Shown one piece after another: positions 806-27,572 of a stretch of DNA of 36,563 nucleotides. The notes under the pieces were generated by a model, which had not been told where the DNA came from, ran no database searches, and saw only the letters and a program-made list of their open reading frames with translations. Every line of letters begins with the position of its first letter. The stretch's first letter is position 1. The stretch is from a virus, in the IMG/VR virus record IMGVR_UViG_3300033821_000103, positions 1 to 36,563 of that record; one strand, 5' to 3'. A program made the translations under genes and the position numbers.

Positions 806-1099
806 CTATAATCGGTCGTTAAGAATTGTTGCAATCAGTGAATATGGGTTCTCGATGCCCTCAAGCTTGATAATCTCGTCGCGCCGGTATTCGATGATAA
901 CAACGGCATACTCAATGGTCTGCGAGTACGTCCACCGCGAATAGATCTCGCGATAGAAGAGCGGGTTGCCCTTCGCGAGCTTGAGGATAAGTTTTTTCTG
1001 GTGATCGATGAAATCAAAATTACTTGCTTCAACGGTTTTTACTCCCGGGGAGTCGCCAAGTTTCGCACGGGCACGAGAAAGATCCCGGCCAATTGCCCG
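806..1099 (-). CDS. Tail assembly chaperone, frameshift-encoded second part (GT-like extension)
   Basis: This 97-codon frame has no usable start codon of its own. Its upstream limit is an in-frame TGA directly before the slippery run, and it stays open to TAG at 806-808. The reading is protein-like (for example SNFDFIDHQKKLILKLAKG, then PLFYREIYSRWTYSQTIEYA). It lies in the -1 frame of the preceding gene. A slip at T TTT TTC would join residues 1-99 of that gene to this segment, giving a protein of about 196 residues. Lambda gpGT and Mu gp41/42 are made this way: the longer form binds the tape measure protein during tail assembly. The tape measure start follows after two bases. Seen: frames and heptamer. 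Inferred: that the shift occurs. Confidence 0.85.
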   Translation of the reverse strand, partial: RAIGRDLSRARAKLGDSPGVKTVEASNFDFIDHQKKLILKLAKGNPLFYREIYSRWTYSQTIEYAVVIIEYRRDEIIKLEGIENPYSLIATILNDRL

Positions 1100-1395
1100 A
1101 AAAAATCATTCATCGCCCGCCCCATCACGCTCAGGTCGTGCTGTTTTGAAAAATCAATATCGTCCGCGCCGCCGATGAAGATGATGCCGCACATCTTCTC
1201 GCGTTTCTCCGGGTCCAGCGTTACGTCCATCTTGCGGACGGCGCCCAATACCGCATTTTCATCGCGCATCATTTCTTCGAATGATTTGAATCCGAGCATC
1301 TCCAGCGCCTGGCCGGTGAGATCGTTAAAGGGAGGGTTCAGCGTCTTCGTTATCGTGCCGCCGCCTGTTTTTGGAAATTCGTGAGTTACCGCCAT
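1039..1395 (-). CDS. Tail assembly chaperone, short form (G-like)
   Basis: This 118-residue protein sits between the giant tail ORF and the tape measure gene, the usual place of the gpG-type chaperone that keeps tape measure protein soluble. The start is supported by GGAG about nine bases upstream of the ATG at 1395. I recognise no named domain. The N-terminus (HEFPKTGGGTITKTLNPPFN) resembles the beta-strand-rich start of many tail chaperones, and the rest is mixed alpha/beta. The T TTT TTC heptamer lies at codons 98-99, so most ribosomes should finish this short form while a minority make the fusion with the 806-1099 frame. The call rests on position and on the frameshift architecture. Confidence 0.75.
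   Translation of the reverse strand: MAVTHEFPKTGGGTITKTLNPPFNDLTGQALEMLGFKSFEEMMRDENAVLGAVRKMDVTLDPEKREKMCGIIFIGGADDIDFSKQHDLSVMGRAMNDFFGQLAGIFLVPVRNLATPRE
1099..1105 (-). promoter_or_regulatory. Programmed -1 frameshift site, T TTT TTC
   Basis: The minus-strand heptamer fits X XXY YYZ in the frame of the upstream gene (codons 98-99, Phe-Phe). The -1 frame opens exactly here, because its last stop (TGA) abuts the heptamer. A 6-bp inverted repeat begins at the last base of the heptamer: CGGGCA (minus, plus positions 1094-1099) pairs with TGCCCG (1068-1073). It could form a stem just downstream that stimulates shifting. Confidence 0.8.
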
Positions 1396-1516: not shown

Positions 1517-4500
1517 TTAAATCGCCGGGGTCGGATACGTCCCCTTCGTTGAATTATAAAATTTCTTTACTCTCTCCGGGCTCCATGCAGTTCCTCGGAT
1601 CGCAAAAGCGCTGCCAACCGATCCCTGCATGCCGTAACCGATCTTCACCTCGTTCGCATTGTCGCCGATTGCCGCCAGCGCCGAGATGTCCACCGTACCG
1701 ACCGGCGCGCCATCAATATAGAGCGTTGCCGCTCCGCCGTTCTTCAGCGTTGCAACGACGCAATGCATGGCGTCATCGATCACGGTTGCCGAGCTGGTAA
1801 TCGTTACGCTCGAACCGGATGTGACCGTTAATTTTAGTTTGCCGACGAGCGTATCGATTGTTGATAAGAGGATCTTGCCGTTCTGCAGGGAGACGATCTG
1901 CCGGTCGGTCGATTGCAATGCCGGCTTCTTGAACCAGATAATAATTGTCGCATCCGCCGTGCCGATGATTTCCTTTCCGGTAAGTTGTGCGGAGGGGATA
2001 TCGATGAAGTCTCCTGCATCGGCAAATCCGTGCGTTACGCCGTCCGCTCCCCAGAACCCCGCGCCGGGAGAGACAGGGGAAATTGCAAGCTCATCGTTGC
2101 CGATATCCAAAATGGTATTTGTTGCCCTGCCTTTGCCTAACTCCGGGGCAATCAGCCACATCATGCCGGTGGGATCGAACCACCCGCGCATCGCCCACAT
2201 GCCTTCGCTCACTCTGCCGGCGAACGTGGAATATTTTATCAGCGCGCGGTTTGCCTTCTTGCGCGCGTTCGAGCCGTGATAGCCTATTGTGGCGTTCGTA
2301 TCCCGGATGACAATTGTCTGGTCCGGATTGACGATCCAGAGATGCGCGCCGGTGAAATCGATATCATCCTGGTCTTGCAATTCGGCAAGCGAGGTCTGGA
2401 GCATCTCCGCCGAGGTGACGATATCGACGCCCATTTCTATCGGGCGGCCATCCTGGTCATTCTCGCCTGCCGGAGTGCCGTTGTTCAGCAATGTATCCTG
2501 CGCGATGATGCCGACGTTGCGGAGTGACTTATCGGATTTTTTGTAAATAACAAGATCAGCGCCGCCGCTGATAATATTTTCCGGGTTTCGGTTCATGGTT
2601 TTCTTCCTGACAAAAGTGGAAACAATCGAATGGTTTGCAGTAATGTAATTGAACTGATAAAATGGAACGGGACCAACCGGCTCGTTATCGACCAGCACCT
2701 GATGGATGCTGTAACCCCGATTGGGAGTGATAAAGAACGACTGGCTGCCGCCGACCTGAACCGGGATAACTCCGCGCGGAAAAATGCTGCCATTAATTCC
2801 GGAGTCGGCGAGGATGAGATATGTTGTCGGCTCAAAGTTCGCCACAATCGTGTGGTCTTCGGTCACGTTCGTAAATTCGTAGCTTTCTGCCGCGTCGCAG
2901 ACAACGCCATCGATGATTAATTCCGACACCGCGTAGCCTTCATCCGGAGTGATAGTATATGATTGCGTGCCGCCGTCATCGACTTCGGTCGCTCCATCCG
3001 GAGATATGTCGCCGTGTAAGCCGGCTGAAGAGGTGATGACAGGAGCGGGGAAGCTGCGGTACATTTTTGTGTTCGCCGTCGCCGATGAGGGAATCACCAC
3101 AGTCTCAGCGTCCCAGATATATCCGGAGCCTAACGTGTCATCGATCCTGCTGTTCTCTTTGAACGTCAAACATCCGTCAAACGATTGTAGGAGAACGCCC
3201 TCGGCGGTGATTATCATCGCATTCAGGCTATCAAATATTTTTATCATTGTGAACGCAAGCCCGAGGTGGATAAGCGTCCAATTCGCTCCGGCATCGTTCG
3301 TGATTCCGATGAATGATCCGCCATTTTCAGGTCCGGCGATCCATCCATTGTTTGCGTCGATGAAATGAATAAAATCAAATACGGGGTATCCTTGCCATGA
3401 TGGCGTTATATCGTTCCAGATCGTCCCTCCGTTCAGCGATCTGTGAACATGCCAATCGCCTGCGATGTAGATCTCGTTCGCAGTCCTCATCTGAACACAG
3501 TGATTTTTATTTCCAGTCGGGGGCGTCAATGTTGTCCAGCTTGAACCGGCATTTGTCGTTTTTGCAATAAAAGTATTATCATACCCAACTATTGTTCCGT
3601 TATTCGCATCGAAGAAATCGCAATCAGAAATGTATGTTGAAACGCCGTGTTCAATCACATTATATAACGATACGATTGTCCCATTCTGAATGATAAACGG
3701 TTCGGCGCACATAAGAACAACTGACCCATTCGTCATCTTTTTTAAATTGCCAAGATGCTGCAGATCCAAACCCTCGAGTTGTTGCCAAGTCCGTCCGCGA
3801 TTTATGCTTATTGCAATATAATTGTCGCTATAAGACGGATAAAGCATTACTCCATTAAGTCCATTGAAAGCAACCCACGGGTTTCCCGTTGAGATCGGCT
3901 TGCCAATCTGGTACCAGTTTAATGCGCCGGCGGAAACGAGCGGATAGACCGGTTTGCTAAAGGACTCAAGGTAATTCGCATCACCGCTATAATGCGCGGT
4001 GATTTTCAAAATCATTGCAATCGTAATATCCGCTTCGCCGTTTTCATCCAGATCAATCGCATCCTGGTCAACTCCATCCACGGTGAATACAACATTGCCG
4101 GTCGGTTTGACGGGGGTTGATTTCGAGTTCACGACCGTGGCGCGGTAGGTTATCGTACTGCCATTGATGATCCGGCTGATCGTTGTAATGGCAGTTATCG
4201 GGTCAATCGAAAATCCCCAGGCATTTGAATCTCCGCCTCCGCCGGAATTGAAGACGGTTATATCAAATATTCCTGATACCATTAAGCAACTCGCCGGAAC
4301 AAGGGCCGTAAGCTGCGTCATGCTGACGAATGTTGTCGTGAGGTCGTTGCCATTGAAACGCACTGTTGATTGCCCGTTGACAAAATTTGTCCCATCAATG
4401 GTGATGGTGAAATCAGGATCGCCGACCACCTTTATATCGGGATGAATATTCGTAATTGTCGGCTCCGATGAACTCGCATCAGCCCCAAACATCACCACAA

Positions 4501-7500
4501 TGGTGTGATCGTCGGTTACGTTATCGAACTGGTAGCTTGACCCCGGCGCAACATAAACGCTATCAACCGTCACAGTTGCGACGTGATATCCGCTGTCCGG
4601 GGTAAAACTAAAAAGCTGGCTGTCTCCATCTGTCACCGCAGTCGATCCACTCGGGCTTATCGAGCCGTGGCTCCCTCCGGATGCCGTGATGTGATGAATC
4701 GGCTTTGCCGCAAATGTCACCACAATCGTATGCGTCGCGCTGATATTGCTGAATGTATAGGTGAGCCTGCTCGATATCGGCGTGCCGTCGATCTGTATCA
4801 CGTCCACTTTGTAGCCGTTCGACGGCGTAATCGTGTATGTCTGCGATTGGCCATATGTCTTTACCGTATCTCCTGCGGGGGATATTGTCCCATGCGACCC
4901 TGCTGTTGCATGGATCGTGTAGGTGTCGACCGCAAACGTGACGCTGATCGTATGCGCCGCCGTTATATTGCTGAACGTATACGATGTAATCGCTCCCTGG
5001 GAGACGCTATCCACGAGCACGTCGGCAACGTGGTAGCCGGTTGCAGGAGTGATTGTAAATGCGCGGCTTGCGCCATAGTTCACGCTCACCGATCCGCTCG
5101 GGCTTATTGAACCGTTCGCGCCGGCAGAAGCGGTAATCGCATAAGTGTTTATTGCAAACGTAACGCTGATCGTATGGTCAGCCGTCACGTTGCTGAAGGT
5201 ATAACTCGATTGAGCGCCGACTGAAACGCCGTCAACCAGCACATCAGCAACGTGATATCCTATTGAGGGAGTGAATGTAAACTGCTGAGATCCCGCGTCG
5301 GCAACAATAGCGGCGCCGGAAGGAGAGATAGAGCCGTTGCTCCCTGCGCTGGCATTGATTGTATGCGTAACTGCGGCGGAACTTGAACTCAAAAGCTGGA
5401 AGTTATCGAATCTTGCAGGTGTTGTAAAGACCGCGCCGCGAATCCAGAAGTACCAGCTCGTCGGGTTATAGGCTGTATCCGCGTACGAGAGCACTTCTAC
5501 ATTATTGACAAATACTTTCATCGTTGAACTTGCGTCGTCAACCACGATGAACTTCACAACGTCGCCGGCAACAACCGGGTAACTCGTCGTCGATACGAGC
5601 GTGGTATTATTCACGCCGTTCACGATCCGCTCGATGGCAAGAGTGGTATTCGAGCCGGGATTATCGATCATTTTAAATCGGTATCCATTGCCCGTTGAAA
5701 GGTCTTTACTCTGCATTCTCGCGTAGATAAAGAGCATGGAATACGAGCCGCTGCCGGGCTTTTGCAAAATGGTGAGCGCAACGCCGGAGCCCTTGGTCAT
5801 TAATTGATTCCAGGCAATGCCGCCGAAGTTATTCACGCCCGCGCCGCTGTACGCCTGAATTGCATTGCTCACAACCGCCATCGATCCGCTTGAAGGCTGA
5901 TTGAGAAGCGGCGTCCAGTTCAATCCGGCCACCGGGTTTTCATTTGCCCGGTCAAACGTATCCGAGGCAATCACATTATATGTGACCGCGATATTACGGA
6001 CGATGACCGATACCTGCACCGTTGTGCTGTTCGCGGCAGCATCGCGCGCGGTTGCCGTGAGCGTGTACGTGCCGTTCACCTGGTTAAGCGTGTTCCACTG
6101 CAAATTATAGGGAGCCGCAGTAACTTCTGCGCCGAGATTGGTTCCGTTGAGCTTGAACTGTACGCCCACGACTCCCACATTATCTGACGCCGTCGCACTG
6201 ATTGTTTGCGTGCCGGATACCGTGGTGCCATCGACCGGGCCGTTAAGCACTATTGTTGGCGCCTGCGTATCGGGCGTGTTGGATATCGTCACGCCAATAG
6301 ATGCGCTGGCAGTGTTGCCTGCCGCATCGCGCGCCGTTGCGCTCAGCGTGTATCCGCCGTTGCCCTGCTGCGCGGTGTTGTATGAAATCGTATAGGGTGA
6401 CGCCGTCACTTCCGTGCCGATGTTATCTCCGCTGAGCATCGCCTCGAGCGCGGGAAGAATCTTAGCAGCCATAAATTGTGATCCCGCGTCGTTCGGGTGG
6501 ACGTTCGTCGGCGCGTCCTCGTACATCGTGCTCATGTTAAAGCCGGTCGCCATATCGACAACCACGATTGGCGACTGTGATGTTGCTTTGCTAAGCGCCC
6601 ATGCGGGGATTGCCGCGTCGAGCGCAGTTGTCGCTGCCAGCTCTGCCGATGAGCCATCCATCGGGATGATCTGGCACAGGATTACTTTTACATTCGGGTT
6701 GAGCGAACGGACCGCATCGATCATCGTGCCGTAATCGGCAAGCGTCTGCGTAATCTGCGCCGTTGTTGCGCCGTTCCAGAAATTATTCGTGCCGGCATGG
6801 ATGCAAACGATATCGGGTACGTTGCCTGCCGAAAGAAGCGTGGCAAGCCAGCCGGGCAATCCGGACGCGAGCTGCGCGGAGTTGTATCCGCTGTGTCCTT
6901 CGAGATCCTGATAATACGCCGTGCCGTTGTACGTTACGCCCTGGCCGCCGTTGGTGACTGCGGTACCGACGTAAACGAAATTCGTGTAGCCTGCTGCGCG
7001 GAGATATTCGTACAGCGCGGGCGGGTAATGCGTGGCAGCGGTGATTGAATCGCCGAGCATCATCACTTTGTATGCGGCAGTCTTTTTCAGTTTGAACTGA
7101 ACGCCCACAACGCCAACGTCGTCGGATGCTGAAGCGGTCAGAGTTGCAATGCCGGAGAGTGACGCGTTGTTCGCCGGAGTTGTGATGCTCACAGTCGGCG
7201 CTGTGGTATCGGGAGCGAGCCCGTTTATTGCCGCCTTAACGGTTTGCGCGAGGATATCGCGCTGGCCGACTGCCTGATTCTTCCGGTATCCTCCGGCGAT
7301 ATCCCAAATGATGATTCCGCCGACACCCTTCGCTGCGGCATACGCGACCTTTGCTTTGATCGTCGTCTCATCGTCGTATGTGATGAACTTCGGCGACGTG
7401 CCGGTGATGGAAAGATACGTTGCCTGCGCTGTGGCGTCCCACTTGTTATTCGCGGCGGAGAAGTAATTATCCATGATTGAATAATACGGCACATTCGACG

Positions 7501-8215
7501 CGACACCCGTTACGCCGCTCCAGATATATCCGTACCAGTCGATGCCGATACCGAGCTTTGCATAGGGAGCTCCAGCCGCGTGCCATTGTTCAACGATGCC
7601 ATTGACGGAGATATTGCCTTCCTGGCCGGGCACCTCGCCGTTTTCATAGATTGCGCTGTTGTGCCACGACACCCATCCTGAATACGCGCCGGTTGCCAGA
7701 TCGTATGTCATGAGATTGACCTGGTCAAACTTCGCGTAGAGCGGAGCAAGAACGGAAGGATCCCAGGCGTTCGCAGTCGTTAATAAATACGGTCCTCCGG
7801 ATGCGGCGTCCATTGCCGTGCGGAGATTGGTGATGAATGAAACGAGATTCGTTGTGGAGTTCTCTTCGTAATCGACATCGATGCCATCGTAGCCATACGT
7901 CTTCATGAACGTGACGAGGTTCGCGATGAACGTCGCCTGGTTTGCCGAAGAGATTGCCGATGGGAAGTTGGGTGAGTTGTATCCGCCGATGCAGATGAGG
8001 ACCTTCTTGCCGGCCAGGTGGGTGGCGTTGACAATCGACGTGATGCGCGATGTATCGCCCGCGTTCGGGATGATGGAATTGCCGGAAGCGTTGAGCGATC
8101 CGTCCGCGTTCGGAATAAGAGAGAAATGAACGATGTGCGTGAAGACGGAAAAATCAATCGCGCTCACCGGGCACTGGTCAATTCCCCAGCCGGTGTAATA
8201 TCCTGTTACCCACAT
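1517..8215 (-). CDS. Giant virion protein: GH18 chitinase-like, SGNH esterase-like, Ig, InlB-type repeats, lectin (tail)
   Basis: 2232 residues with no signal peptide, as expected of a virion part. Domains in order: GH18 fold 1-335 with DGIDVDYE at 110-117 (catalytic Glu117); Ig-like 336-650 carrying an inserted SGNH/GDSL hydrolase at about 378-597 (GDS at 388-390, GTNN at 475-478, HPND from His573; the Asp usual three before this His is Thr570); Ig-like 651-740; concanavalin-like sandwich 741-945; four InlB-type 'GxxGSISPSG...GYHVxxVxVD' repeats 950-1244; IPT/TIG 1252-1335; Ig-like group 3 1340-1425; YCF48/BNR-like propeller 1430-1720; two more InlB-type repeats 1726-1868; a phage-like segment from Met1874; LamG-like lectin at about 2030-2220. 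The likely role is binding and cutting surface polysaccharide during adsorption. It occupies the tail-tube position just upstream of the chaperone pair. Domain calls are from motifs read by eye. Confidence 0.85.
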   Translation of the reverse strand: MWVTGYYTGWGIDQCPVSAIDFSVFTHIVHFSLIPNADGSLNASGNSIIPNAGDTSRITSIVNATHLAGKKVLICIGGYNSPNFPSAISSANQATFIANLVTFMKTYGYDGIDVDYEENSTTNLVSFITNLRTAMDAASGGPYLLTTANAWDPSVLAPLYAKFDQVNLMTYDLATGAYSGWVSWHNSAIYENGEVPGQEGNISVNGIVEQWHAAGAPYAKLGIGIDWYGYIWSGVTGVASNVPYYSIMDNYFSAANNKWDATAQATYLSITGTSPKFITYDDETTIKAKVAYAAAKGVGGIIIWDIAGGYRKNQAVGQRDILAQTVKAAINGLAPDTTAPTVSITTPANNASLSGIATLTASASDDVGVVGVQFKLKKTAAYKVMMLGDSITAATHYPPALYEYLRAAGYTNFVYVGTAVTNGGQGVTYNGTAYYQDLEGHSGYNSAQLASGLPGWLATLLSAGNVPDIVCIHAGTNNFWNGATTAQITQTLADYGTMIDAVRSLNPNVKVILCQIIPMDGSSAELAATTALDAAIPAWALSKATSQSPIVVVDMATGFNMSTMYEDAPTNVHPNDAGSQFMAAKILPALEAMLSGDNIGTEVTASPYTISYNTAQQGNGGYTLSATARDAAGNTASASIGVTISNTPDTQAPTIVLNGPVDGTTVSGTQTISATASDNVGVVGVQFKLNGTNLGAEVTAAPYNLQWNTLNQVNGTYTLTATARDAAANSTTVQVSVIVRNIAVTYNVIASDTFDRANENPVAGLNWTPLLNQPSSGSMAVVSNAIQAYSGAGVNNFGGIAWNQLMTKGSGVALTILQKPGSGSYSMLFIYARMQSKDLSTGNGYRFKMIDNPGSNTTLAIERIVNGVNNTTLVSTTSYPVVAGDVVKFIVVDDASSTMKVFVNNVEVLSYADTAYNPTSWYFWIRGAVFTTPARFDNFQLLSSSSAAVTHTINASAGSNGSISPSGAAIVADAGSQQFTFTPSIGYHVADVLVDGVSVGAQSSYTFSNVTADHTISVTFAINTYAITASAGANGSISPSGSVSVNYGASRAFTITPATGYHVADVLVDSVSQGAITSYTFSNITAAHTISVTFAVDTYTIHATAGSHGTISPAGDTVKTYGQSQTYTITPSNGYKVDVIQIDGTPISSRLTYTFSNISATHTIVVTFAAKPIHHITASGGSHGSISPSGSTAVTDGDSQLFSFTPDSGYHVATVTVDSVYVAPGSSYQFDNVTDDHTIVVMFGADASSSEPTITNIHPDIKVVGDPDFTITIDGTNFVNGQSTVRFNGNDLTTTFVSMTQLTALVPASCLMVSGIFDITVFNSGGGGDSNAWGFSIDPITAITTISRIINGSTITYRATVVNSKSTPVKPTGNVVFTVDGVDQDAIDLDENGEADITIAMILKITAHYSGDANYLESFSKPVYPLVSAGALNWYQIGKPISTGNPWVAFNGLNGVMLYPSYSDNYIAISINRGRTWQQLEGLDLQHLGNLKKMTNGSVVLMCAEPFIIQNGTIVSLYNVIEHGVSTYISDCDFFDANNGTIVGYDNTFIAKTTNAGSSWTTLTPPTGNKNHCVQMRTANEIYIAGDWHVHRSLNGGTIWNDITPSWQGYPVFDFIHFIDANNGWIAGPENGGSFIGITNDAGANWTLIHLGLAFTMIKIFDSLNAMIITAEGVLLQSFDGCLTFKENSRIDDTLGSGYIWDAETVVIPSSATANTKMYRSFPAPVITSSAGLHGDISPDGATEVDDGGTQSYTITPDEGYAVSELIIDGVVCDAAESYEFTNVTEDHTIVANFEPTTYLILADSGINGSIFPRGVIPVQVGGSQSFFITPNRGYSIHQVLVDNEPVGPVPFYQFNYITANHSIVSTFVRKKTMNRNPENIISGGADLVIYKKSDKSLRNVGIIAQDTLLNNGTPAGENDQDGRPIEMGVDIVTSAEMLQTSLAELQDQDDIDFTGAHLWIVNPDQTIVIRDTNATIGYHGSNARKKANRALIKYSTFAGRVSEGMWAMRGWFDPTGMMWLIAPELGKGRATNTILDIGNDELAISPVSPGAGFWGADGVTHGFADAGDFIDIPSAQLTGKEIIGTADATIIIWFKKPALQSTDRQIVSLQNGKILLSTIDTLVGKLKLTVTSGSSVTITSSATVIDDAMHCVVATLKNGGAATLYIDGAPVGTVDISALAAIGDNANEVKIGYGMQGSVGSAFAIRGTAWSPERVKKFYNSTKGTYPTPAI
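2594..2611 (-). promoter_or_regulatory. Internal ribosome binding site and start (Met1874) within the giant tail ORF
   Basis: On the minus strand AGGAAG lies six bases before the ATG at 2596. Initiation here would give a 359-residue protein (1517-2596) that begins MNRNPENIISGGADLVIYKK and ends in the LamG-like domain. Everything upstream of this Met is repeat and enzyme domains. Everything downstream up to residue 2020 looks like a compact phage structural domain. The AGG AAG also encodes Arg-Lys, so chance cannot be excluded. Confidence 0.45.
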
Positions 8216-14056: not shown

Positions 14057-14701
14057 CTATTCAAGGTGATACCGCCGCATGATTGCAATCATCGTGACGG
14101 CATATTGAGGGTTGGGATTATAACGTTTCGCAATCGCCCTGGCAAAACGTTCCGGGTTGGTGGTTTTGAACGCGGCTGCGTACAACGGTGAATGAGTGAG
14201 ATATTCCCCGTGCACGCGAAAACATTCTCTGATATTTTTGTACGAGGAGAACCGCCGCTGGGGGCCAATCGCGAGTTCCCCGTCCTTGATTATTCTGTCC
14301 GCGCGCCATACCCACGATGTGTCCTTCAAATACTTTATCACTGCCTCGAAGGTATGGCCGAGGTAGTTGTGCGCTCCGAGTTCGTTTATTCCCCAACTGC
14401 TTTCGATTGCCCATTGCGCTAACGTGACTCCTTTCGGAATGAAATATTTGTGTTCGAGTTCATTGGCGAGATCCTTTACAAGTTGTGGGAAATATTTCGG
14501 TTTGGCGTCGGGAAGTTCGGGGTTGATGCTGATTCCGGCGATTGCTCCATCGAGGGGCATGATGCCCTGCTCGATAACCCAATCGAGGTCGCGCGCAGCA
14601 TTTTCGTTTTCATTGCTGCCAAGATAGATCAGCCACACCCCCGTTACCACGAGCGCGCCGATGAATACGCCGATCAGAAATGTTTGCATTGATGATTTCA
14701 T
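14057..14701 (-). CDS. Signal-anchored glucosaminidase endolysin
   Basis: 214 residues. Residues 7-27 form a Gly/Ala/Val-rich hydrophobic segment (FLIGVFIGALVVTGVWLIYLG) that could be a signal-anchor-release type export sequence. From about 75 the protein follows the FlgJ-type glucosaminidase pattern: 'VTLAQWAIESSWGINELGAHNYLG' region with Glu100 as likely catalytic acid, 'FSSYKNIRECFRVHGEYL' and 'YAVTMIAIMRRYHLE'. It would cut the glycan strands of peptidoglycan at host lysis. It is the first gene after the left late promoter and leader, so lysis genes are read first on this arm. A holin candidate lies two genes downstream. Confidence 0.85.
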   Translation of the reverse strand: MKSSMQTFLIGVFIGALVVTGVWLIYLGSNENENAARDLDWVIEQGIMPLDGAIAGISINPELPDAKPKYFPQLVKDLANELEHKYFIPKGVTLAQWAIESSWGINELGAHNYLGHTFEAVIKYLKDTSWVWRADRIIKDGELAIGPQRRFSSYKNIRECFRVHGEYLTHSPLYAAAFKTTNPERFARAIAKRYNPNPQYAVTMIAIMRRYHLE

Positions 14702-14974: not shown

Positions 14975-15712
14975 TCATTGAGACCTGTCCTTTGAATATA
15001 ATCGAATTTGAAACGAAGCGCTCCAGACCGACATCGAAAAATTCATACCAGGGTTCATAGGGTAATTTACGGACTGATGGTTAATGTGGATACCGTAAGA
15101 GACATTTGGCGCTGCCGTATAAAGCAACTCGGTACCGAAGGATAATCGGGTATCATTGCCGGAGGAGGATCCAAGTTCGGAATGTATGAGATCGGCCCCG
15201 CCGTTGAGGAATATCGAGATATTGCCGACATAACCATCAGGACCTAAACCATTGGTAGGAGTCGATGGGGGAATATATTCCAGCGGTTGAGCTACGGGCG
15301 CTTCCTCTGCAGGCAATACTACCGGTTCCGGAGCCCTCTCTGCCAATATCCCAACCTCCATTTCGCCACCGTTCCTCTTATAGACGTGGAATCTATAGGT
15401 TAAATCTCTACTCATCCAGATGTAGAAGTTTTCTCCTATCTGGAGGTTATGGATTGACGAACTATCCCAGGGTTCACTTGTATAACGCCGAACCCCGCCA
15501 ATTCCGGTGAATATCATAGACGCTGATGAATCGATATAGGTTGCAGAAATATGCGAGTCTGTAACCTGATTCCTCTTGCCGTTCTTAAAAGTTTCCGTAG
15601 ATTCACCCGCCAACGCCGATGCGCGTATGATATTTTCATGCCAGGAACTTTCCGATACTCCGCCACAACCCGAAATAACGAGTGTGGCGAACAATAATAT
15701 ATAATATCTCAT
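14975..15712 (-). CDS. Lipoprotein co-expressed with the repressor (lysogenic conversion candidate)
   Basis: 245 residues with a lipoprotein signal: MRYYILLFATLVISGCGG, lipobox VISGC with Cys16 as the modified residue. The mature part has a Pro-rich linker around 130-155 (APEPVVLPAEEAPVAQPLEYIPPS). It ends in beta-strand-rich sequence (SYGIHINHQSVNY, then WSASFQIRLYSKD) reminiscent of an outer-membrane beta domain. Its ATG overlaps the repressor stop (ATGA), so it should be made whenever the repressor is, that is, in the lysogen. Prophage lipoproteins expressed this way often block superinfection or change the cell surface. That role is inference, as I recognise no family. Confidence 0.8.
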   Translation of the reverse strand: MRYYILLFATLVISGCGGVSESSWHENIIRASALAGESTETFKNGKRNQVTDSHISATYIDSSASMIFTGIGGVRRYTSEPWDSSSIHNLQIGENFYIWMSRDLTYRFHVYKRNGGEMEVGILAERAPEPVVLPAEEAPVAQPLEYIPPSTPTNGLGPDGYVGNISIFLNGGADLIHSELGSSSGNDTRLSFGTELLYTAAPNVSYGIHINHQSVNYPMNPGMNFSMSVWSASFQIRLYSKDRSQ

Positions 15713-25039: not shown

Positions 25040-25257
25040 ATCCTTCGTTAGCCGGCGACGAGCCGAAAGGCGGATGGAACGTTGTGGCGGGTAAGGTGTA
25101 TGACGCAATGCGGTTCATCCTTAAGCCCTGGGCGATCCCCGATACGGTCGCCCTCCGGGCCGCCGGCGCCGCAATGGACGAGATCAGGAAGTATTTTTTG
25201 GAAGTGAACAGTAACGCCACAATTCCAACAGAAGGAAAGGACCAAAGGAATGTATAG
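25036..25257 (+). CDS. Hypothetical protein, GTG start coupled to gam
   Basis: 73 residues if started at the GTG at 25036, which overlaps the gam stop as GTGA and has GGGGAAG upstream. A longer frame from GTG 25012 lies inside gam and is less likely. Sequence: GDEPKGGWNVVAGKVYDAMR followed by FILKPWAIPDTVALRAAGAA, compact with no known motif. The end translates the AAAGGACCA cassette of the next gene (GKDQRNV). Confidence 0.55.
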   Translation: MNPSLAGDEPKGGWNVVAGKVYDAMRFILKPWAIPDTVALRAAGAAMDEIRKYFLEVNSNATIPTEGKDQRNV

Positions 25258-25471
25258 GATTGTAATGCTGGGCGGAAAATACTACGGTGCAGAGTTCTAT
25301 GAACTCGAACACGAACTCGACAATCTTCACTCGCATTTAGACAATCAAGAGCCGGTTATACTTGTAATCGAACTTAACGACTTAGACAGAATCGGTATTG
25401 ATCCACGCGACGTCATTGTTGCCGGAACGAGCGACGAGGATGACACCGAGAAAGCTCCGGGGAAAATATGA
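25250..25471 (+). CDS. Small acidic hypothetical protein
   Basis: 73 residues, strongly acidic (ELEHELDNLHSHLDNQEP; TSDEDDTEK), with AAAGGACCAAAGGA before the ATG. The beta-alpha-beta feel (MYRIVMLGGKYYG ... EPVILVIELNDLDRIGI) and acidity would suit a DNA-mimic or a small inhibitor, but no family is recognised. Overlaps the next gene by four bases. Confidence 0.55.
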   Translation: MYRIVMLGGKYYGAEFYELEHELDNLHSHLDNQEPVILVIELNDLDRIGIDPRDVIVAGTSDEDDTEKAPGKI

Positions 25472-26097
25472 GCCGCAAACCGGGACGATTGCCGAAGGAG
25501 AAGGTTCTCCAGGAAATCAAGGACATGCACGATAAACTGGGACGCGCGCCGAAGGTTAAGGAAGTACCGGCATACATCGCCGACCGCGCGCTTGCCGAGT
25601 TCGGATCGTTCGAAAATGCGGTGATCCGGGCAACCGGAAAACCAGGCGGAAGGCACGAGTGGACCGACGAAGAACTGCTTGCGATAATTGCCAGGCTCAA
25701 CATTGATCTCGGCAGATTTCCGGGATGGGCTGATATCACGCGGCACAATAAGCGCTGCGCGAAAGTCATCGGCAACCGGTGGAAATCGCTCGACGAGGCG
25801 ATCAGGCTGGCGACCGGCATCTCGCCGAAGGAAACAATCCTCACGGCAATTGAAGCGCTCACGCCTCCGGGCTGCAGCGAATGTTCGAGCGCCGAGGTTA
25901 TAGAGGAGATCCACCGGTACGGCATAGGAATCACGGCGACTCAATGCGGACACTATTGCTACGAGATGGCGCAGGAGGGGCTGATCACATGGCGCAAGGG
26001 CGGGAGGATATCGACATACGCGTTGACCACTGAAGGCAGAAAAAAACTTCATAGCAAGATAGCAGATAGCAAAATAGCAAAAGGACCAACAGTATGA
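25468..26097 (+). CDS. DNA-binding protein with two HNH-associated repeats and winged-helix C-terminus
   Basis: 209 residues. Two copies of the homing-endonuclease-associated repeat: about 10-58 (LQEIKDMHDKLGRAPKVKEV ... FGSFENAVIRATGKPG) and about 66-115 (DEELLAIIARLNIDLGRFPG ... WKSLDEAIRLATG). Then comes a winged-helix-like region at 118-195 (SSAEVIEEIHRYGIGITATQ ... LTTEGRKKL). There is no HNH nuclease motif, so it likely binds DNA without cutting. A related two-repeat protein lies at 27955-28461, next to the right late promoter. Its end is encoded by an AGCAAGATAGCAGATAGC type repeat. A regulatory role is inferred. Confidence 0.7.
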   Translation: MSRKPGRLPKEKVLQEIKDMHDKLGRAPKVKEVPAYIADRALAEFGSFENAVIRATGKPGGRHEWTDEELLAIIARLNIDLGRFPGWADITRHNKRCAKVIGNRWKSLDEAIRLATGISPKETILTAIEALTPPGCSECSSAEVIEEIHRYGIGITATQCGHYCYEMAQEGLITWRKGGRISTYALTTEGRKKLHSKIADSKIAKGPTV

Positions 26098-27377: not shown

Positions 27378-27572
27378 ATGCCGAACGTTGAGGAACTTAT
27401 TAAATTATTGCGGAAGATTTCGGGGACTGTGGATATCGTGCACATTGACGTCGATTTCGGGAACGGTGAAGTTCACTGGAAGTCACAGGTGAGGGATTTG
27501 CAACCCGAGGAATATATTCCCCGGAAATTTAAGAAAAAGCATCCAGATTCTTCAGCAAGTGACATTCAATGA
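27378..27572 (+). CDS. Hypothetical protein
   Basis: 64 residues from the ATG at 27378 (a TTG frame from 27363 is longer). Sequence: VEELIKLLRKISGTVDIVHIDVDF followed by GNGEVHWKSQVRDLQPEEYIP, a small alpha-beta protein with a Lys-rich end. No family recognised. No clear ribosome binding site, so the start is uncertain. Confidence 0.5.
   Translation: MPNVEELIKLLRKISGTVDIVHIDVDFGNGEVHWKSQVRDLQPEEYIPRKFKKKHPDSSASDIQ

Follow-up and report, generated by a model that had tools for sequence, protein, structure and literature searches.

A probable programmed −1 ribosomal frameshift in the putative tail assembly chaperone genes of a Mu-like phage

Results

Overlapping reading frames upstream of the putative tape measure gene

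The DNA analysed here (36,563 nt, referred to as the window) is an IMG/VR virus record (IMGVR_UViG_3300033821_000103) and represents a transposable, Mu-like phage. Genes for a MuA-type transposase, MuB, terminase, portal and Mu F-like proteins are located on the plus strand, and the protease, scaffold, capsid (phrog_1005), gp36, neck and tail genes on the minus strand. Close to the left end of the window two overlapping ORFs (ORF A and ORF B) directly precede the start of a further ORF on the minus strand. The features of this region and the overall gene layout are:

1039..1395, minus strand: ORF A, gpG-like short tail assembly chaperone, ATG start, 118 codons; role assigned from position
1099..1105, minus strand: slippery heptamer T TTT TTC, ORF A codons 97 (third base) to 99, D-F-F
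1039..1098, minus strand: A/B overlap, the ORF A tail with 19 codons past the heptamer and then the stop; a weak stem lies inside
806..1105, minus strand: ORF B, T-like extension read in the −1 frame; both slip codons are counted among its 99 codons
3..803, minus strand: probable tape measure gene, identified by position; its first 267 codons fall inside the window, whose edge truncates it
9900-35592: divergent layout, packaging/portal genes (plus strand) opposed to protease-capsid-tail genes (minus strand)

The initial annotation had proposed a programmed −1 frameshift between the two putative chaperone frames. Its coordinates for these frames were correct, and all of the features lie on the minus strand. 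ORF A is preceded by a good Shine-Dalgarno sequence (AAGGAG) 5′ of its ATG. The heptamer is in the zero frame of ORF A: codon 97 (GAT) contributes the first T with its third base, and codons 98 (TTT) and 99 (TTC) make up the rest. As had also been described, the ORF B frame opens exactly at the heptamer and lacks a start codon. It is open from position 1105, with a TGA (1108-1106) immediately 5′, and ATG, GTG and TTG are all absent across its 99 codons. At the codon frequencies of the genes in the window, the chance of such a start-free ORF is about 0.005. ORF B ends with a TAG (808-806), and the next ATG (803-801), two bases further on, is by position the probable start of the tape measure gene. 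The predicted shifted product has 196 residues (99 + 97) with the junction ...NDFFRAIGR..., and the A-specific tail that is encoded 3′ of the heptamer in the unshifted frame is GQLAGIFLVPVR.

Apart from ORF A and ORF B, the minus strand has no overlapping −1 pair with an in-frame slippery site, while three such pairs are present on the other strand, so a heptamer alone is not rare. Since chance alone would place an X XXY YYZ heptamer in 7% of 22-codon overlaps like this one, it is weak evidence when taken by itself.

Genes flanking the ORF pair

Profile searches found no family match for the probable tape measure protein. Its ORF has no clear Shine-Dalgarno sequence and starts two bases past the ORF B stop, which makes it plausible that its translation is coupled to ribosomes finishing ORF B.

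Directly upstream of the putative chaperone genes, at the usual place of the major tail gene, an ORF of 2232 codons is located (1517-8215, minus strand). It encodes GH18 chitinase, GDSL esterase and bacterial Ig domains, repeats, and a Laminin_G_3 domain near the C-terminus. The chitinase and esterase domains lie at one end and a candidate tail protein with an internal start at the other (1517-2596, minus strand; internal ATG at 2596 with AGGAAG about seven bases upstream). The last 359 codons could be translated both on their own, giving a separate tail protein, and as part of the giant one; no tail-tube family match for this candidate was found in profile searches.

Both frames show the codon usage of genes

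The codon score of ORF B (0.36 per codon) is close to the mean of the true genes of this phage (0.37), while the −1 frames of genes score −0.58 per codon. None of 665 off-frame control windows reached the score of ORF B. Codon bias identifies the ORF A frame as coding 5′ of the heptamer and the ORF B frame as coding 3′ of the ORF A stop, and the ORF A frame scores as non-coding beyond that stop. ORF B is thus genuinely coding, and this bias is the strong part of the case against chance, the heptamer the weak part.

No support for the downstream stem as a stimulator

A 6-bp stem directly after the heptamer had been put forward in the initial annotation. The stem (CGGGCA/TGCCCG) exists, but it takes in the last base of the heptamer. 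It also lends no support to a frameshift: shuffled versions of the region fold about as well (z values of −0.35 and −0.61), and the stem was therefore rejected as a stimulator. Comparison of the fold with shuffles revealed no stimulatory RNA structure 3′ of the slip site that is stronger than expected for the sequence.

The putative chaperones lack detectable sequence relatives

No relatives of ORF A, ORF B, the fusion or the tape measure start were detected in IMG/VR, annotated phages or GTDB genomes. A search of the PDB gave no match, and the comparison of profiles between the window chaperone and the chaperones of relatives was not significant. Neither ORF A, ORF B nor the fusion matched the tail assembly chaperone profile phrog_1442 / DUF6631, to which the chaperone of one relative (L092) shows matches at 9e-33 (phrog_1442) and 1.5e-20 (DUF6631). 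Single-sequence AlphaFold models were of low quality (pLDDT 45 and 47). As far as can be judged from these searches, the chaperone sequences of the window phage appear to be without recognisable similarity to known ones. Since no sequence homologue of ORF A or ORF B was found, we assign the chaperone function by position, as we do for the identity of the probable tape measure protein. For the same reason, namely that neither half has a detectable relative, the case rests on synteny with phages that share the capsid.

The arrangement is conserved in phages sharing the capsid protein

For 107 contigs in which the major capsid protein is shared with the window, we inspected the gene pair before the tape-measure-like ORF, which was picked automatically in 58 contigs. 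A slippery −1 overlapping pair was present directly before this ORF in 27 of the 58, which is a lower bound, because the strict rules missed two contigs (L002 and L039) that were recovered by hand. Elsewhere, 31 such pairs were counted in 984 kb. In some contigs (class 1) A AAA AAC or G GGA AAC is located at the extreme end of A. Class 2 pairs resemble the window: the heptamer, T TTT TTN or C CCT TTN, lies inside A and is followed by an A tail of 20-60 codons.

The divergent layout of the window was found in nine related contigs (L002, L006, L011, L039, L044, L072, L076, L081 and L089), and therefore looks like that of a natural sub-lineage. An origin of the contig as a strand chimera, with packaging genes artificially opposed to head-tail genes, was rejected on the same grounds. 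Two further observations were made in this part of the window: a gene for a glucosaminidase-type endolysin (14057-14701, minus strand) adjoins the protease gene, and a 22-nt inverted repeat pair (GGGGAATATATTCC..., 15268-15289 and 27501-27522) with 12 kb between the copies is possibly a regulator binding site.

All eight relatives with the divergent layout and a readable chaperone region have a −1 heptamer in the pair, and in five of these eight it is part of GA-T-TTT-TTN:

L002, L006: T TTT TTC
L011, L039, L044: T TTT TTA
L072, L089: C CCT TTG
L076: C CCT TTA

T TTT TTC is found at the equivalent place in L002, L006, L018 and L074. The first two of these share with the window the divergent packaging/head-tail layout, the residues DFF at T TTT TTC, and a B part whose end is close to the tape measure gene, but show no significant sequence similarity to its chaperone. 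Homologues in which the second part has its own start would have argued against a frameshift. In 13 positional homologues no in-frame ATG, GTG or TTG was present within 60 bases of the heptamer, and a weak Shine-Dalgarno-like match was seen at only two starts, 174 and 198 bases downstream.

Discussion

Alternative explanations for the two frames

ORF A and ORF B would be one continuous ORF if one T had been lost from the T6 run by an assembly error or a recent mutation. A seventh T would indeed join the two frames, homopolymers are prone to indels, and the run is known from one sequence copy; a search for another assembly in which the number of Ts differs gave none. However, the capsid relatives and annotated phages have their frames broken in the same way, at this heptamer or at another valid one, and independent errors would not produce this. 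We therefore consider a lost T very unlikely. Even less probable is a separate translation of the two frames, in which ORF B would be read from a rare start codon (ATT, codon 5 of B) or by reinitiation after A. ATT starts a few bacterial genes and coupled reinitiation is common in tight operons, but the ORF B frame begins exactly at the heptamer and contains no ATG, GTG or TTG, and the B parts of the 13 positional homologues lack any of these within 60 bases of the heptamer.

The shift could also be made by RNA polymerase instead of ribosomes. Slippage of the polymerase on the T6 run would yield an identical fusion product, and the homopolymer run it needs is present. A run of six Us is short for this process, though, and C CCT TTC or G GGA AAC, which relatives have at the same place, fit slippage of tandem tRNAs but do not form long runs, so that polymerase slippage is hardly to be expected here. 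Position, frame, codon bias, and the architecture in capsid relatives and annotated phages all support the programmed −1 frameshift that had been proposed. With high confidence, we thus attribute the arrangement to a programmed −1 ribosomal frameshift of the lambda G/GT type, leading to a 118-residue chaperone and a minor 196-residue fusion.

Proposed mechanism

From this arrangement we infer the slip, its rate and the roles of the proteins as follows. Most ribosomes would read ORF A to its stop and produce the 118-residue chaperone. On T TTT TTC a minority would move back by one base, both tRNAs would pair anew with TTT TTT, and translation would continue in ORF B to give the minor 196-residue fusion. 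The ratio of the short product to the fusion would be fixed. As in lambda, many short chaperones may coat the tape measure protein while few fusions recruit the major tail protein, and neither form of the chaperone would remain in the virion. It is conceivable, but rather doubtful, that the pair represents a new sequence family so far seen only here, and that its T-like part would act together with an unusual tail protein encoded within the 2232-residue ORF upstream.

Mechanistically nothing new is seen here, and the importance lies mainly in annotation. As ORF B has neither a start codon nor a known homologue, it would be lost to gene callers and homology transfer alike. The frequency with which such genes stay unjoined in annotation has been described (PMC10885494). 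Position, frame, heptamer and codon bias jointly can identify tail chaperones once sequence similarity is gone.

Comparison with known phages

The Casadabanvirus phages MP42, MP38, JBD30 and PaMx73 (D3112 group) are transposable siphophages in which the major tail protein gene is followed by G, GT and the tape measure gene, and have a T TTT TTC identical to that of the window. In the record of MP42 TTTTTTC is annotated as a misc_feature, 'slippery sequence for ORF43 -1 translational frameshift', and the joined chaperone gene (gpGT) ends at the tape measure start. The MP38 record is annotated with gpG and gpGT, and T TTT TTC was reported for the tail assembly genes of PaMx73 (PMC4378225). The chaperone family of these phages (phrog_1442 / DUF6631 type, shown for relative L092) is, however, not matched by the window protein.

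The major capsid protein of phage B3 (Beetrevirus) is 50% identical to that of the window over its full length, and a slippery pair likewise lies directly after the major tail protein. B3 differs in that the heptamer is C CCT TTC and unannotated, and that a com/methyltransferase insert separates the pair from the tape measure gene. ORF44 and ORF45 of B3 (L112 3673-4328, corresponding to B3 25072-25727) look like an unannotated gpG/gpGT pair with this C CCT TTC; the record lists a separate chaperone and a hypothetical ORF there.

The lambda slip site is G GGA AAG. In lambda the −1 frameshift occurs near the 3′ end of G and the second part ends at the tape measure gene. The window agrees with the G/GT type in that its second ORF is coding and lacks a start of its own, that the overlap contains an X XXY YYZ heptamer in the zero frame, and that two ORFs overlap, with ORF B shifted to −1, at a place bounded by the tape measure gene, assigned by position, and the major tail gene, which is uncertain. 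The chaperones differ in that no sequence similarity between them was detected. The lambda frameshift (Levin 1993; Xu 2004, as cited in PMC5009743) is a mechanism that is widely conserved despite low sequence similarity, according to the same review. The frameshift of the window is very probably real but ordinary, being of the lambda G/GT kind and using exactly the slip site that has already been published for related Pseudomonas phages.
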